From: Acidibrevibacterium fodinaquatile
GTDB taxonomy: Bacteria; Pseudomonadota; Alphaproteobacteria; Acetobacterales; Acetobacteraceae
Reading direction: 5' to 3'
Length of the DNA: 64,000 nucleotides
NCBI RefSeq assembly: GCF_003352165.1
Contig: NZ_CP029176.1
Location: forward strand, 744,001 to 808,000
Each line of letters starts with the position of its first letter. Within the stretch, counting starts at the first letter, position 1. Both the position numbers and the translations under genes were made by a program. Below, piece by piece: positions 5,552 through 11,180 of the stretch. Below the pieces are notes generated by a model. That model worked only from the letters and a program-made list of their open reading frames with translations, was not told the DNA's origin and did not search any database.

Positions 5552-5843
5552 CCTGTTTCCCCTTCGCGCCCTCTGGCGCCCGCTGCTGGCGGGCGATCTT
5601 AACGATGAGTGTGCCGGCGAGGCCACGCAGGGTCAAGGGGAGCCACAAATCGGCCAATCGCGTGTCCGACGGGGTCCCGATCCCGCGTTGCGCAAGCCGT
5701 CTGGTCGCGGCGGAAGGGACGCGCCCATCGTCATCTTGACATGAATCATCGATGGCGGCGGCCCGCTGGCGCATACGTCTTGGGCCGTGGGCGGACGGGG
5801 ACGGATTTCCCGCTCGGATCGGTGTTGGCAGGAGAGAAGACGC
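5552..5843. promoter_or_regulatory. Divergent intergenic region between coxS and the flavoprotein gene
   Basis: 292 bases without a gene, separating two divergent transcription units, so at least two promoters are expected. TTGACA occurs at 5736-5741 on the plus strand, but nothing resembling a good -10 box follows at normal spacing. No clear operator dyad was found. The rightward gene has AGGAGA about 9 nt before its ATG; the leftward coxS has AGGGG. Confidence 0.35.
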
Positions 5844-7232
5844 ATGGAAAAAGCCGCAAGCATTGACGTCATGGTGCTCGGCGCTGGCGGCGGCGGCTAT
5901 CCCGCCGCCTTCCGCCTTGCCGGCGCGGGACGCGCGGTCGTCATGGTCGATCCGTTCGGCAATCTCGGCGGCGATTGCCTGGCCGAAGGCTGCGTGCCCT
6001 CGAAGGCGGTGCGCGAGGCGGCGCTCGTGCGCACCTGGCCGGCGAAATACCCGCTATTCGGGTTGCGTGGTGAGACGCCAGAGGTCGATTGGCGTGGCGT
6101 GTTGGCGCACAAGGACCGTGTGCAGTCCCTCCGCTATGCCCAGCATCGTGAGGAGATCGCGGCCTCGACGCTTACGCTGCTCAAGGGCAGCGGCCGGATC
6201 GTCGATGACCACACCGTCGAGGTCACGACCGAGGGCGGCGACATTCTGCGCTATCACGCCCAGCACCTGATCATTGCGACCGGATCGCGTCCGCATCGGC
6301 TGCCGATCCCGGGCGCCGAACTCGCCGTGACTTCGCATGATATTTTCCGCCTCGGCGCCGATCTGCCGTTCCCGCGCCGGCTGGTTGCGATCGGCGGCGG
6401 CTATATCGGGCTCGAAACCGCCTCGATGCTGCAAAATCTCGGCGCTGAGGTGACGGTTTTGGAAGCGACCGAGGCGATTTTGCCAGGCGTCGATCCCGCT
6501 CTTGCGGGCTATCTGCACCGGGCACTGGCGCGGCGGTTGACCCTGGTCACCGGCGCCAAGGTGACGGCGATTGCGCAAGGCGCCAACGGCGGTCTTCAGG
6601 TTCGCTATGAGAGCGCGGGCGAGATGCGCGACTTGGCCGCGGATTGCGTGCTGATGGCGACCGGGCGCGAGCCGGTTGTGCCGGAGGGGATCGCGGCGCT
6701 CGGCCTGCCGGCGGGGCGGATCGGCGTTGATGATCGGCTGCGCACCGCGCTCGCGCATGTCTATGCGCCGGGTGACGTGAATGGGCGCAGCATGCTGTTT
6801 CACTCTGCCGTCTGCCAAAGCGTGATCGTTGCGGAGGCTATTTTGAGCGAGGGCCAGGCGCCGGCGCGGATGAATTTCGCGTCCGTCCCCTTCACCGTCT
6901 TTACCGAACCGGAAGTCGCCTGGGTGGGTGTGACGGAGGCGCAAGCGGCGCGGCAGGGGATCGCGGTGGTAACCTCGACCTACGATTTCCGCACCGATTC
7001 GCGGGCGCAAATTTTCGACGAGCGAGAGGGTTTTCTGACGCTCGTCTTCGCCAAGCGCACCGGCAGTCTCATCGGCGCCCAGGTCGCCGGGCTCGACGCG
7101 GCCCATGTCATCGCGCCGCTCGCGCTCGCCGTCCACACCGGCACGACCGCCTCGACCCTGAGCGTTATGGCCTTCCCGCACCCGATGGTCACAGAGGGTA
7201 TCAACAAGGCGGCGCGGGCGGTGCGGCTCTGA
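5844..7232 (+). CDS. Dihydrolipoyl dehydrogenase-like FAD-dependent disulfide oxidoreductase
   Basis: 462 residues, starting MEKAASIDVM with AGGAGA upstream. It has the class I pyridine nucleotide-disulfide reductase layout: FAD-binding GAGGGG (13-18), redox cysteines C45 and C50 in GDCLAEGCVPSK, an NAD(P)-binding GGGYIGLE motif, the second FAD motif APGDVNG, and a C-terminal HPMVTE that keeps the His/Glu dyad. No E1 or E2 2-oxoacid dehydrogenase genes are nearby, so a role in such a complex is not supported by context. It may act on another disulfide. The next gene, an amidotransferase, follows after 12 nt and is probably co-transcribed. A merA gene encoding a related reductase lies 2.5 kb downstream. 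Confidence 0.8.
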   Translation: MEKAASIDVMVLGAGGGGYPAAFRLAGAGRAVVMVDPFGNLGGDCLAEGCVPSKAVREAALVRTWPAKYPLFGLRGETPEVDWRGVLAHKDRVQSLRYAQHREEIAASTLTLLKGSGRIVDDHTVEVTTEGGDILRYHAQHLIIATGSRPHRLPIPGAELAVTSHDIFRLGADLPFPRRLVAIGGGYIGLETASMLQNLGAEVTVLEATEAILPGVDPALAGYLHRALARRLTLVTGAKVTAIAQGANGGLQVRYESAGEMRDLAADCVLMATGREPVVPEGIAALGLPAGRIGVDDRLRTALAHVYAPGDVNGRSMLFHSAVCQSVIVAEAILSEGQAPARMNFASVPFTVFTEPEVAWVGVTEAQAARQGIAVVTSTYDFRTDSRAQIFDEREGFLTLVFAKRTGSLIGAQVAGLDAAHVIAPLALAVHTGTTASTLSVMAFPHPMVTEGINKAARAVRL

Positions 7233-7244
7233 GCGGGCGGCGCC

Positions 7245-8066
7245 ATGTGTGAGTTGCTCGGCATCGCTGCCTCGGTTCCGATCAGCGCCCGCTTCTCGCT
7301 GCGGCGGCTGGCGCGGCATGGCCGGGGGGCGGGCGCGCCGATCGATGGCTGGGGCGTCGTTTTTCATGACGGCACCGATGCGCGTTGCTATCGCGAGCCA
7401 GAGCCCGCCGGGAAAAGCGCTTGGCTCCGCTTTCTCGAACGCCATCAGCCGCCGGCGCGCATCGTGATTTCCCATATCCGGCTGGCAACCGCCGGGACGG
7501 TTGCGCTGCGGAACACCCATCCTTTCGTGCGCGAACTCGGCGGGCGCATGCATAGTTTTGCCCATAACGGCCGTCTGCCCGGGATCGAGACGCTCGCCGG
7601 CGGCGAGACGAGCTGTTTCCATCCCGTGGGAGAGTCAGATTCCGAGCGCGCGTTTTGCCTTCTCCTTGACCGGCTTGCGGCGTTATGGCGCGGCGCGGTG
7701 CCGTCTGCCGCGGCGCGGCTTGCGGTGATCCAGCGTTTCGCGTCTGATCTCCGCGCGTTGGGGCCGGCCAATTTCCTCTATTCCGACGGCGACTATCTCT
7801 TCGCGCACGCGCATCGCCGGCATCAGCGGAGCGGGCGGATCGAGCCGCCGGGCCTCTGGCATCTCGCCTGCCCCTGTGCTGATGCCGGAATGGCGGTGCG
7901 CGAGGCCGGCGTCGCCCTGGTCGCGGGCGCGACGCCAGCACCCGTCGATGTCTTTGCGAGTGTGCCGCTCTCGCCCGCGCCCTGGCGCCCGCTCGCCGAA
8001 GGCGACGTGGTGATGGTGCCGGCCGAGGCGCCGGCCAACGTCTCGATCAGCGGGCAGCCCGGCTGA
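7245..8066 (+). CDS. Class II glutamine amidotransferase (YafJ/EgtC-like)
   Basis: 273 residues beginning MCELLGIAAS. Cys2 becomes the N-terminal nucleophile after Met removal. The motifs SHIRLAT and FAHNGRL match the glutamine-binding and oxyanion residues of the class II (Ntn) glutaminase domain. No synthetase domain is fused, so the ammonia acceptor is unknown. Stand-alone members include EgtC, which removes glutamate in ergothioneine synthesis, and YafJ of unknown role; no other ergothioneine genes are here. It lies 12 nt after the flavoprotein gene. Its last 244 nt overlap the opposite-strand merR reading frame (see findings). Confidence 0.8.
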   Translation: MCELLGIAASVPISARFSLRRLARHGRGAGAPIDGWGVVFHDGTDARCYREPEPAGKSAWLRFLERHQPPARIVISHIRLATAGTVALRNTHPFVRELGGRMHSFAHNGRLPGIETLAGGETSCFHPVGESDSERAFCLLLDRLAALWRGAVPSAAARLAVIQRFASDLRALGPANFLYSDGDYLFAHAHRRHQRSGRIEPPGLWHLACPCADAGMAVREAGVALVAGATPAPVDVFASVPLSPAPWRPLAEGDVVMVPAEAPANVSISGQPG

Positions 8067-8467
8067 CCGTCGGCCGCGCCGCGGGCGTCACATTGCCCGA
8101 TCAAGGCGCTCAGCGCCGTCTGCATTGCTCGCAGCGCGGCGATCTTGCGCCTGACCGCGGCGAGATGGGTGCTCGCGAGCGCTTTCGCCTCGGCGCAGGG
8201 CATGGCGCTGGCCTCGGCGAGGCCGAGCAGCGCGCGCACCTCATCGAGGGTGAAGCCGAGGTCACGACCACGCAGGATGAAACGCAGGCGTTGTTCATGC
8301 GCGGGGCCATAGAGGCGGTAGCCATTGGCGGCGCGCGGCGGCGCGGCCAGCAGACCGGCTTTCTCGTAATAGCGGACGGTTTCGAGATGGCAGCCGGTGC
8401 GCTCGGCGAGTTCGCCGCGTGTCAGGAGCGGCGCCAGGGTCATCACCGGCGCGTGATTTCGCGGCAT
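7823..8467 (-). CDS. merR: MerR-type mercury-responsive transcriptional regulator
   Basis: Start MPRNHAPVMTLAPLL has AGAGG about 7 nt upstream. The DNA-binding winged helix reads HLETVRYYEKAGLL (27-40), followed by the long dimerisation helix. C91, C126 and C138 match the three Hg(II)-binding cysteines of MerR; the C91-C126 distance of 35 equals that of C82-C117 in Tn501 MerR. The terminal CPLIETL also matches. It is divergent from the predicted mer genes and reads away from a MerR-type promoter. In known systems MerR represses without metal and untwists the promoter with Hg(II). The frame runs about 70 residues past the usual MerR end, giving 214 residues, antisense to the amidotransferase. 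The tail is low-complexity and may be an artefact or a true extension. Confidence 0.85.
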   Translation of the reverse strand: MPRNHAPVMTLAPLLTRGELAERTGCHLETVRYYEKAGLLAAPPRAANGYRLYGPAHEQRLRFILRGRDLGFTLDEVRALLGLAEASAMPCAEAKALASTHLAAVRRKIAALRAMQTALSALIGQCDARGAADGQPGCPLIETLAGASAGTITTSPSASGRQGAGESGTLAKTSTGAGVAPATRATPASRTAIPASAQGQARCQRPGGSIRPLR

Positions 8468-8478
8468 GAAAAAACCTC

Positions 8479-8509
8479 TTGAGCCTGTAGTCACTACAAG
8501 GACTAGGGT
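8479..8509 (+). promoter_or_regulatory. MerR-type promoter/operator with 19-bp spacer
   Basis: The -35 TTGAGC (8479-8484) and -10-like TAGGGT (8504-8509) are separated by 19 bp instead of 17, the hallmark of promoters activated by MerR-family proteins. The spacer holds a perfect dyad, TGTAGT-C-ACTACA (8486-8498). It sits between divergent merR and the thioredoxin-like gene and should drive the rightward genes. The match of -10 to consensus is modest. Confidence 0.75.
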
Positions 8510-8579
8510 ACCGCCCGAGCAGACGCGCGGCAAGCGATCAAACCGGCTTTGCGCTCGCCGCGCCCATCGGGAGAGTGTG

Positions 8580-9164
8580 ATGAAGACAGCAAAGCGTGCG
8601 ACGATGGCCCTTGGTGTTGGCGCGATCATGGCGAGCGTGGCCGCCGCCTTTTCGCCCGCTTGGGCGCAACCGGCCCAGCCCAAGGGCACGATGGCGCCGA
8701 TGAATGGCGCGGCGCCGGCGAACGCGCGCGCCGTGGACGCGCCGCTCCTCGTCGCTGGCAAAACCGTCCCGCTCGCGACGTTCAAGGGCCAGCCGGTCAT
8801 GGTCTGGCAGGTCGCGACCTGGTGCGGAAGCTGCGCCGTCGGTCTCAAGACGATGGCGCAAAACCTCGCCCTGATCGACGCCTCTCATCTCAAAATCATT
8901 ATCCTCAGAGATTACCAGAATGGCGGCTATCCCGGCGAGACCATGGAAAAATTCGTCGCGGCCAACGCCCCGGCGCTGCTTCACGATCCCCATATCGTCA
9001 TCGGCGAGGACACGGAGGCATTCTTCAACCAATACAACCCGCATCATTACGTCGATGTCTATCATCTGATCGGCGCGAACGGCGAAATCGTCGCCATCTC
9101 CTCAGCACCCTCGATGACCTTCGACAAGATCAAGCAGTTCATCACCGCCGAGGGAAACTCATGA
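8580..9164 (+). CDS. Secreted thioredoxin-fold protein (CGSC) of the mer-like locus
   Basis: 194 residues. The start ATG (8580) has GGGAGAG upstream. Residues 1-30 form a signal peptide (hydrophobic core GVGAIMASVAAAF, cleavage near AWAQ). A thioredoxin-like segment follows: TFKGQPVMVWQVATWCGSC with C82 and C85, then a beta strand HLKIIILRD and DVYHLIGANGEIV. It is most likely periplasmic. In a mer setting the CGSC pair could bind Hg(II) or keep a partner's thiols reduced, a role that MerP (an unrelated HMA fold) plays elsewhere; this is inference. It is first after the MerR-type promoter and overlaps the next gene's start by ATGA (9161-9164), so translation is coupled. Confidence 0.75.
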   Translation: MKTAKRATMALGVGAIMASVAAAFSPAWAQPAQPKGTMAPMNGAAPANARAVDAPLLVAGKTVPLATFKGQPVMVWQVATWCGSCAVGLKTMAQNLALIDASHLKIIILRDYQNGGYPGETMEKFVAANAPALLHDPHIVIGEDTEAFFNQYNPHHYVDVYHLIGANGEIVAISSAPSMTFDKIKQFITAEGNS

Positions 9165-9736
9165 GTGCGGCGCTGTCTGAGCGGGCGCTCAGCGTGCCGC
9201 GCGCGCTCGCGATCGTGCTCGCCTCCCGGCGCGCCAAGATCGCAACCGGCGCCGTGTTCGTGCTCTTCTCCGTCTTTTACGCGATGCTGTTGCCGGCGAC
9301 CTATACCAGCGGCGTCATCGGGCTGGTTTCGCTCCGCTATCTGACGCCGGGGATGCTCGAGCTTGCGCTCGTGATGGCAGCGCTCTTGGCGCTCACCCTC
9401 AGTCTCGGGGTCTATGGGTTTCAGCAGGGGGCGGGTGCGAAGCCAGCGGGGAGCGTGGTGGGCGCCATTCTCGCGGCGCTGCCGCCGTTGCTGTGCTGCT
9501 CGCCGGTCTTGCCGCTCGCGATCGCCATGGTCGCCGCGGTATTGCCGGCCGCCGGCGCCTTCGGTGTGCCGATCCAGGGCTTCATCGCAACCCACGAAGG
9601 GATGCTCTACGCCATCGCGACGGGCCTGATGGCCTGGGGCCTCTATGGCAACGCGCGGCGCGTGCTCGCTTGCCCGCATTGCCTGCTCCCCCGCGGCACA
9701 GCCGATGCCGGCTGCGCCATTCCGACGACAAAATAA
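9161..9736 (+). CDS. Polytopic membrane protein with Cys-Cys pair, putative mercury transporter
   Basis: 191 residues with hydrophobic segments at about 27-49, 62-88, 98-132 (long enough for two passes or a re-entrant pair) and 146-163. C112-C113 sit inside the third segment (LLCCSPVLPLA). A vicinal cysteine pair within a membrane helix is also seen in MerT, MerC and MerF. The C-terminal tail carries CPHC (C171, C174) and C185. No overall match to MerT, MerC, MerE or MerF was recognised, so this may be an unrelated or very divergent Hg(II) importer feeding MerA. It is translationally coupled to the thioredoxin-like gene by ATGA and ends 13 nt before merA. Confidence 0.7.
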   Translation: MSAALSERALSVPRALAIVLASRRAKIATGAVFVLFSVFYAMLLPATYTSGVIGLVSLRYLTPGMLELALVMAALLALTLSLGVYGFQQGAGAKPAGSVVGAILAALPPLLCCSPVLPLAIAMVAAVLPAAGAFGVPIQGFIATHEGMLYAIATGLMAWGLYGNARRVLACPHCLLPRGTADAGCAIPTTK

Positions 9737-9749
9737 GGAAACAAATCCG

Positions 9750-11180
9750 ATGTCTAACTGTTGTGCGGCGCCCGGCGCGGGCGCATCGACCCCTGACCTC
9801 GTGGTGGTTGGCGCCGGCTCGGCGGGATTTTCGGCGGCGATCCGGGCGAGCGAACTCGGCGCGCGCGTCGCCTTGATCGGGTCGGGGACGATCGGCGGCA
9901 CCTGCGTCAATATCGGCTGCGTGCCGTCCAAAACGCTGATCCGCGCCGCCGAGACGCTGCACCAGGCGAAGGCGGCGGCGCGTTTCGCCGGGATCGCGGC
10001 GGAGGCGCGGCTTGCCGATTGGTCGGCGCTGCTCGCCCAGAAAGACGCCTTGGTCGCCGACATGCGCGACGCGAAATATGCCGCCCTGCTGCCCGACTAT
10101 GAGGGGATCCGCTACGTCGCGGGCGCTGCCCGCTTCACCGCGGGCGGCCTCGTCGCCGGCGATGAGCACTTTCCCGCCGCGCGCGTCGTCATCGCGACCG
10201 GCGCCGCACCGGCGATCCCAGCGATTCCGGGCATCAACGAGGTGCCCTATCTCACCAGCACCTCGGCGCTCGCGCTCGCGCGGCTGCCGCGCTCGCTGCT
10301 GGTGATTGGTGGCGGCGTGATCGGCTGCGAATTGGGCCAGATGTTCGCGCGCTTCGGCGTTGCCGTCACCCTCGTCTGCCGCTCGCATCTCCTGCCCGGC
10401 TTCGCGCCGGAGGTGGTCGCGGCGCTGACCGGCTATTTGCGCGAGGAAGGGATCACCGTCCGCTGCGGCGTTGCTTATCAGCGCATCGCGCGCGATGCGG
10501 CCGGCATCGCGCTCGCCGTGACGGCCGATGGCCGACCGGAAACGATCCGCGCCGAGCAGGTTCTGGTCGCGACCGGGCGGGCGCCGAACAGCGCTGGGCT
10601 CGACCTCGCTTCCGCCGGCATCGCGACCGACGCGCGCGGCGCCATCACCGTCGATGACTTCCTCGCAACCTCCCGCCCCGGCGTTTATGCCGCCGGCGAC
10701 GTCACCGGCCGTGACCAGTTCGTCTATATGGCGGCCTATGGCGCGAAGCTCGCGGCCGAGAATGCGCTGAACGGCAATGCCCGCCGCTACGATGCCCGCG
10801 CCATGCCAGAGGTGGTGTTCACCGACCCGCAAGCGGCGCGCGTCGGCCTCACCGAAGAGCAAGCCCGCGCCGAGGGGCACGCGGTGCGCACGGTGACGCT
10901 CGCGCTCGATCAGGTGCCGCGGGCGCTCGCCGCGCGCGATACGCGCGGGCTGATCACGCTGGTCGCCGAAGAGGGCAGCCTGCGCTTGCTCGGGGCGCAG
11001 ATCCTGGCGCCGGAAGGGGCGGATGCGATCCAGACGGCGGTGCTCGCGATCAAGCACCGGCTGACCGTCACCGATCTCGCCGAAACCCTGTTCCCCTATC
11101 TCACCACCGTCGAGGGGCTGAAACTCGCGGCGCTCGGGTTCCAGAAGGACATCGCCAAACTCTCCTGCTGCGCCGGATAG
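9750..11180 (+). CDS. merA: Mercuric reductase
   Basis: 476 residues, with AAGGAA 9 nt before the ATG. It reduces Hg(II) to volatile Hg(0) with NADPH in the cytoplasm. Visible features: FAD-binding GAGSAG, redox pair C52/C57 in GGTCVNIGCVPSK, NAD(P) site GGGVIGCE, FAD motif AAGDVTG, and the C-terminal pair C473-C474 in LSCCAG, which accepts Hg(II) in MerA and is absent from lipoamide dehydrogenases. It lacks the N-terminal HMA (NmerA) domain but has a short C4-C5 pair at the N-terminus (MSNCC). The length fits a core-only MerA. It is the last gene of the predicted operon. Confidence 0.95.
   Translation: MSNCCAAPGAGASTPDLVVVGAGSAGFSAAIRASELGARVALIGSGTIGGTCVNIGCVPSKTLIRAAETLHQAKAAARFAGIAAEARLADWSALLAQKDALVADMRDAKYAALLPDYEGIRYVAGAARFTAGGLVAGDEHFPAARVVIATGAAPAIPAIPGINEVPYLTSTSALALARLPRSLLVIGGGVIGCELGQMFARFGVAVTLVCRSHLLPGFAPEVVAALTGYLREEGITVRCGVAYQRIARDAAGIALAVTADGRPETIRAEQVLVATGRAPNSAGLDLASAGIATDARGAITVDDFLATSRPGVYAAGDVTGRDQFVYMAAYGAKLAAENALNGNARRYDARAMPEVVFTDPQAARVGLTEEQARAEGHAVRTVTLALDQVPRALAARDTRGLITLVAEEGSLRLLGAQILAPEGADAIQTAVLAIKHRLTVTDLAETLFPYLTTVEGLKLAALGFQKDIAKLSCCAG

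Follow-up and report, generated by a model that had tools for sequence, protein, structure and literature searches.

A redoxin-like protein and a polytopic Cys-Cys membrane protein form a mer-linked pair and a candidate mercury capture and import module

The mer system is textbook metal resistance, and genomes are scored against a list of its transporters that comprises MerT, MerC, MerE, MerF, MerG and MerH along with MerP. Archaea, by a report of 2012, are said to be without Hg transporters except for one merP homologue. The locus analyzed here lies at positions 7823 to 11180 of a 64,000-nucleotide stretch of the Acidibrevibacterium fodinaquatile contig NZ_CP029176.1 (the whole stretch is hereafter the window). 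It contains merR and merA and, between them, two genes that are present as a first-pass annotation had described them, one for a WCGSC protein with a signal peptide (hereafter the redoxin) and one for a polytopic protein with CC and CPHC motifs (hereafter the membrane protein). The MerP–MerT pattern, drawn in part from the accessible portion of PMC10433974, combines an exported CxxC with a CC inside a helix and, at the cytoplasmic end, Cys residues. The survey of 272 mer operons in PMC3466566 tabulates merT, merP, merC, merF, merE, merG, merH and TRASH genes; “thioredoxin” does not occur in its accessible portion, and in that of PMC8261052 the word stands in the reference list only. The redoxin–membrane protein pair was not recognized in the literature searched, which left subscription journals mostly uncovered, and an earlier mention is possible.

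The pair resembles MerP–MerT, as found for example in Microvirga plasmid pMVF16-3 (locus L039), in occupying two genes between merR and merA and in combining an exported CxxC protein with an inner-membrane protein that has a helix CC and a second Cys group. It differs in that its capture protein is of the redoxin type and not of the HMA fold, in that its membrane protein has another hydrophobic layout and gives no significant match, and in that its capture gene comes first, whereas the merP gene comes second. pMVF16-3 holds the best-scoring MerA of our plasmid search (65.8%), and its operon reads merR/merT-merP-merA-merB; the pair thus sits in the merT-merP position. Similarly, the Thiomonas-type order merR/redoxin-membrane-merA parallels merR/merT-merP-merA of Methylocystis. 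We consider it probable, judging from sequence, that the pair is a mercury-dedicated mer module that would capture and import Hg(II) in a relay like that of MerP and MerT, built from other folds. Gene order, promoter sequence, pairing, co-divergence, merA linkage and Cys conservation all support such a relay.

Linkage was scored with local hidden Markov models (HMMs) in 42 loci with the membrane gene, which were reduced to 30 nonredundant groups, a MerA being counted if it scored at least 300 bits and lay no more than 6.5 kb away. Loci L003/L004/L013/L014, L005/L006/L026, L011/L016, L019–L022, L024/L025 and L045/L050/L079 were joined; L091, with a truncated gene, and L083, L087, L010 and L012, near contig ends, were kept in the denominators, and L065, whose redoxin is cut by a contig end and in which the membrane gene was not seen, lies outside the 30 groups. 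A redoxin gene adjoins the membrane gene in 27 of the 30 groups, the exceptions being the ANA-3-type transposon, L083 and L091. MerA is encoded within 6.5 kb in 25 groups, 24 of them also with the redoxin, and the association of the module with merA is therefore not chance. Four of the five groups lacking merA lie at contig ends: the 3-kb contigs of L010 and L012 start within the redoxin, L083 is 1.4 kb from a contig end with merB alongside, and the L087 redoxin is 1.6 kb from the contig start. Near the fifth, L091, mer genes were not found. In the plasmid database PLSDB, the membrane family occurs in 14 of 72,556 records (E up to 1e-3) and the redoxin in five, all of which also hold the membrane gene. 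The seven of these 14 records whose annotation was inspected (L002–L006, L050 and L051) all have merA in the same cluster, and label the pair “hypothetical protein,” “redoxin” or “DUF3105”; in the other seven, the membrane protein is 90.4 to 99.5% identical to the ANA-3-type one.

The same survey bears on the alternative that the pair handles organomercurials or other Hg species, such as methylmercury or the neutral Hg-chloride of low pH, and is no replacement for Hg(II) import. merB is close in 7 of the 30 groups (Halorussus, L007, L080, L081, L083, L085 and L088), and many hosts are acidophiles or halophiles, as judged from their names. We regard this alternative as quite unlikely, because no merB was found within 6.5 kb in the window, in the Acidiphilium/Acidithiobacillus elements or in the Thiomonas group, and the 7 of 30 come from a small sample when compared with the 15.4% of 272 operons given in the accessible portion of PMC3466566.

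The two proteins of the putative relay also diverge together. Over 26 loci, membrane-protein and redoxin distances correlate with r = 0.919, a value that none of 200 label shuffles reached (largest, 0.189). For the 14 loci with MerA, the correlation is 0.945 between membrane protein and redoxin, compared to 0.676 between membrane protein and MerA and 0.725 between redoxin and MerA. Some correlation would follow from shared locus ancestry alone; what matters is that the value for the pair exceeds those with MerA. The two genes overlap by 4 nt in 17 of 25 pairs among the matches listed, while a 1-nt gap separates the Halorussus genes and the order is reversed in L027. In a MerA tree of 25 rows picked by hand, eight of them without the pair and all eight from plasmid records, the module label needs five changes, at least four of which are forced by well-supported branches. 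As few changes suffice in 31 of 500 label shuffles, so the label is mildly clustered only. The starred five-row set of the window combines three module and two merTP operons, and within MerA clades, operons with the module and operons with merTP alternate; the place of the long Halorussus branch in the tree is unsure.

Cysteines are conserved at the positions that a Hg(II) relay would need. Our alignments contain 26 redoxin and 28 membrane-protein rows, some of them close kin (L003 and L014), with the Halorussus row confined to the redoxin part of what is a larger Cys-containing fusion. The redoxin CxxC is kept in 26 of 26 rows, and 25 of 26 have no further Cys past residue 35. In the membrane protein, the CC, Pro115 and Pro118 are invariant (28 of 28), 23 rows have no Cys ahead of the CC, and the last 30 residues contain at least one Cys in 27 rows and at least two in 18. 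In the relay that we propose, the exported redoxin would bind Hg(II) via its reduced CxxC, dock on the membrane protein and hand the ion to the CC in the third helix; Hg(II) would then go to the cytoplasmic-side tail Cys (C171 and C174 in the window), which would pass it to the C-terminal CC of MerA, here without NmerA, to give Hg(0). A MerR-type promoter, presumably under the control of Hg(II), would direct transcription of the pair together with merA, and the pair would move among mer operons as a block, either in the merT-merP position or alongside other importers.

The features of the window locus are collected in Table 1. The first-pass calls of merA and of a MerR-type promoter both held up. 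MerA begins at the catalytic core, lacks NmerA and has its redox Cys pair in a GGTCVNIGC motif and its C-terminal CC in SCCAG. The promoter has a TTGAGC-N19-TAGGGT arrangement with a dyad, the layout typical of MerR-activated promoters; the dyad (6+1+6) is inside the merR/redoxin divergent region. The same pattern was seen in 8 of the 15 regions scanned, each time with a 19-bp spacer, namely in all seven redoxin-first operons (the window, L007, L017, L018, L020, L023 and L024) and in L008. The call of merR as equally solid stood in part: the three expected Cys, whose metal-binding role we assume, are present, and TIGR02051 is the top NCBIfam model, above CadR, ZntR and CueR, but its 119.2 bits fall below the cut-off of 150.85. 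Likewise, the ATGA coupling claimed for both genes is found at the redoxin/membrane overlap, whereas 13 nt separate the membrane-gene stop from the merA start.

Table 1. Features of the mer locus in the window (window coordinates)
Feature	Position	Strand	Description
merR-type regulator	7823..8467 (start ATG 8467 or 8443)	-	Pfam MerR HTH and DNA-binding domains, TIGR02051
MerR-type promoter	8479..8509	+	-35 TTGAGC, 19-bp spacer with dyad TGTAGTCACTACA, -10 TAGGGT
Secreted TlpA/redoxin-like protein, 194 aa, WCGSC	8580..9164	+	Proposed periplasmic Hg(II) capture partner
Polytopic protein, 191 aa	9161..9736	+	CC 112-113, CPHC 171-174, Cys185; proposed Hg(II) membrane relay
merA, 476 aa	9750..11180	+	TIGR02053 538.6 bits (cut-off 454.45)

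The window merR carries an extra C-terminal segment of ~60 aa, antisense to the 3′ end of an open reading frame at 7245-8066 that resembles, by eye, a class II amidotransferase; the usual merR stop seems to have been lost. A flavin adenine dinucleotide (FAD) enzyme at 5787-7232 was considered as part of the module and dropped, because NF004943 identifies it as a dihydrolipoyl dehydrogenase (576.5 bits vs. a cut-off of 432). A MerA-like FAD oxidoreductase unlike that of the window adjoins the module cluster in L007, L008, L010 and L082; in the first three, the best NCBIfam match of this different FAD gene is glutathione reductase, below cut-off.

Inspection of the window redoxin by eye shows a hydrophobic, signal-like N terminus that ends in AWA-Q, and the protein has only two Cys. 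MerP is recognized by an HMA domain with GMTCxxC, and no HMA match to the redoxin was found in Pfam, in agreement with the first-pass view that it is not MerP. Its score against the AhpC-TSA model is subthreshold (21.8 bits; threshold, 26), while relatives in L002 and L005 pass the AhpC-TSA/redoxin threshold with 33.3 and 41.3 bits. A search with the family profile retrieves TlpA, ResA and 3ha9, the last of which, presumably an archaeal protein, is the sole one among the five Protein Data Bank (PDB) matches listed to be aligned over most of the profile. On these sequence matches, the redoxin is a member of the broad TlpA/ResA (AhpC-TSA/redoxin) superfamily. It is like the TlpA/ResA family in its redoxin-type sequence, WCxxC and signal-like N terminus and unlike it in its NGGYPG stretch, invariant Asp, separate cluster and linkage to mer. 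With a profile built from module members, the 22 module hits score at least 222 bits, whereas contig-end fragments reach no more than 80 and other genes no more than 49. On Halorussus plasmids (L005, 3533-4984), the redoxin is part of a fusion, with C2H2-type zinc fingers on its N-terminal side and a DUF3105 domain on its C-terminal side, which provides a lead to DUF3105 function.

The TlpA/ResA-type match and the invariant WCxxC would equally suit a function in thiol redox chemistry or repair, in which the periplasmic redoxin strips Hg(II) from damaged thiols or re-reduces them, including those of MerP and MerT, and the membrane protein feeds electrons to the redoxin or recycles it, as CcdA and DsbD do for their partners. 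MerT and MerP coexist with the pair in L080, L081 and L082, where a second importer looks redundant. Electron carriers of the CcdA/DsbD type have single Cys in separate helices, whereas the membrane protein has one vicinal CC within a single segment as well as Cys in its tail, and it has no DsbD/CcdA match in Pfam; in addition, the linkage found is to mer. The residue preceding the invariant Asp159 is Val in 13, Pro in 11, Ile in one and Ala in one of the 26 redoxins. If it is the cis-Pro, a site that the alignment places with an uncertainty of one residue and that Asp159 itself may occupy, the window's redoxin clade, without Pro there, has lost the guard against metal binding, and such a loss fits metal binding better (PMC2757866, accessible portion). 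A Pro retained at this possible cis-Pro site in 11 of 26 redoxins favors the thiol function and another residue there in 15, the window's included, disfavors it; overall, we consider this function of the pair, which matches the other option of the first-pass annotation (thiol protection), unlikely.

Several findings weigh against a Hg(II) relay that replaces MerP and MerT. Known Hg transporters share the cluster in 9 of the 25 merA-linked groups: MerT and MerP lie beside the redoxin and membrane genes in L080, L081 and L082, MerC is found in L088 and L090, MerC and MerE with a MerT fragment in L008, MerE in L084, and a MerF-like gene (43.1 bits; NCBIfam cut-off, 50) accompanies the module in L007. 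The ninth is the ANA-3-type Tn3-family transposon (L050), the sole complete cluster type without a redoxin, which has MerP together with MerT and MerC; that MerP is there where the redoxin is missing is in itself a point in favor of the relay. Its homologue is like the window membrane protein in family (186 bits), in its mer operon and in having the CC in the third segment, and is unlike it in lacking both a redoxin and tail Cys and in having a 131-aa membrane-type protein ahead. The genome of A. fodinaquatile itself contains two MerC-family hits, weak (31.1 and 30.4 bits; cut-off, 27.6) and >140 kb away, and the absence of a MerF match in this genome is a weak negative, as the MerF-like gene in the genome of L007 likewise escaped this search. 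Moreover, mer operons without merT or merP are numerous in any case: merT is present in 54.0% and merP in 49.3% of the 272 operons in the accessible portion of PMC3466566, so that absence is no proof of substitution. In 7 of the 15 regions scanned, all merA-first, the pattern promoter was not found, and the thioredoxin-type CxxC of a TlpA-like protein is equally needed by a thiol reductase. Finally, in hhalign comparisons, the reversed membrane-protein profile scores as high against MerT (25.3) and MerF (21.2) as the forward one.

Given the coexistence in the Gammaproteobacteria set, we dropped the notion that the pair is a strict MerTP substitute; with known transporters in 9 of 25 groups, its role may also be an accessory or thiol-redox one. 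The first-pass proposal of an alternative capture and import route is partly supported, by gene order, promoters, pairing and Cys conservation, but not as one that always stands in place of MerP/MerT; the wording “instead of MerT/MerP” applies to the window and to 16 of the 25 merA-linked groups, which have no known transporter in the cluster (L017 and L085 are cut near merA). Searches of the window's own genome covered MerT, MerF, MerP and MerC. They gave no match to MerT (PF02411; the identical search was positive for 7 of 22 genomes or records). Nothing scored over the MerP cut-off; the best hits, at 34.7 and 32.5 bits, are HMA domains in two genes that, by inferred name, look like copper genes. 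The two MerC hits, whose first hydrophobic stretch contains a single Cys and whose neighbors are Met-rich, were not counted as Hg importers, though they may be. Of 18 other genomes searched for MerT and MerC, 12 had neither over the cut-off, a weak absence as many are metagenome-assembled genomes.

Small, unnamed Cys-containing membrane proteins in L002, L009, the L011 group, L027 and Halorussus could also be transporters. The Cys-rich one at L002 4196-4708, with similar proteins in L009, L011 and L016, lies in the merR-merA interval of Acidiphilium-type operons and is a further transporter candidate. Membrane-type proteins of 71-79 aa with a CC adjoin the module at L005 3068-3307, with no Pfam match, and at L027 1540-1755, with no NCBIfam match. 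Directly 3′ of the membrane gene, L081 (5964-6683) and L082 (6015-6734) encode a 240-aa MerC-domain-like protein (25.0 and 31.6 bits, respectively; cut-off, 27.6). The 131-aa protein of the ANA-3-type transposons (L050 6169-6564 and L045 7335-7730) has a CGRMHC motif and is encoded between a merD-like gene and the membrane homologue. The merA that follows the module in L023 (7624-8984) is split into three open frames, by assembly error or decay.

The claim that the membrane protein is unlike MerT, MerC, MerE and MerF was borne out by HMM comparison, in which the outcome that would have spoken against the first-pass reading, a clear match to MerT, MerC, MerF or a family unrelated to metals, was not obtained. 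None of its 28 rows matches a Mer family model of Pfam or NCBIfam (MerT including PF02411, MerC, MerE, MerF) or any other NCBIfam model, Pfam hits are at chance level and confined to three rows (TetR_C_16 in two, Colicin_V in one; best E, 0.0026), and no relative was found in the PDB. MerT is characterized by three transmembrane helices; in the present family, hydropathy segments number three in the window protein and L007, four in L005, L027 and L045 and five windows of overlapping type in L003. From these, we infer four helices with the CC within the third, and the positive-inside rule, applied by eye, predicts a cytoplasmic tail.

The protein shares with MerF a CC-x-P in a helix, followed by another helix and a Cys-bearing tail, features that would also be expected of a very divergent MerT/MerF-type protein that is no new family. 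Initial hhalign scores against MerT and MerF were 26.6 and 24.4 with the CC aligned on CC; with the 28-row profile they are 24.3 and 20.7, levels reached by 1 of 40 block-shuffled profiles in each case. Homology to MerT/MerF is not claimed, because the reversed profile does as well. Together with the lack of Mer model matches, the two further N-terminal hydrophobic segments and a neighbor that is mostly a redoxin set the protein apart from MerF, and we judge a divergent MerT/MerF origin very improbable. Identity with MerH was rejected. The MerH of Mycobacterium marinum pMM23 likewise has several transmembrane segments, a CC and a place in a mer operon; its CC is in the first segment and not the third, and no alignment was above chance (hhalign 14.3, or 13.7 with the larger profile, which 10 of 40 shuffles equaled; blastp E 0.055 without composition correction).

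The module is sparsely and widely distributed. The first membrane-family profile detected 21 loci in genome contigs, and the single window protein as query detected five plasmid records. Among genome samples, it was found in 1 of 150 from the window's own family, Acetobacteraceae (its own, by single-protein query), 2 of 398 from its own phylum (its own included), 14 of 369 Gammaproteobacteria (broader profile), 2 of 194 Halobacteria (the known Halorussus and a weak fragment with a stop) and 3 of 288 from the phylum of Methylacidimicrobium (one of them known before, the others at ~20 bits); in viral contigs, none of 368 pattern matches was confirmed. Hosts named in record titles include Acidiphilium, Acidocella, Acidithiobacillus, Thiomonas, Methylacidimicrobium and Halorussus. 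Genomes from no fewer than three phyla, one of them archaeal, contain the module. The mer elements of Acidithiobacillus ferrooxidans YQ-N3, Acidiphilium JZ-6 and Methylacidimicrobium (L003, L004 and L013) are 99.4-100% identical over 3.5-10 kb, a near identity of sequence that indicates recent cross-phylum transfer. Just after the module, the Acidithiobacillus/Acidiphilium element (L003, 7581-8174) encodes a Met-rich 197-aa protein that has no Pfam match.

A bolder and more tentative reading is that Hg import evolved a second time, with a thioredoxin-fold protein and a polytopic CC protein forming a complete periplasm-to-MerA relay that stands in for MerP/MerT, or supplements them, in proteobacteria (acidophiles and others) and in one haloarchaeon, part of the family having given up the metal-guarding cis-Pro. 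Were this so, archaea would have a Hg transporter. Surveys of mer that score only the named genes would miss this paired, mer-linked family. If the pair does import Hg(II), it would offer a candidate import route for mer operons without a named transporter, the archaeal one included, and what selection keeps would be the CxxC to CC to CC relay and not the protein fold.

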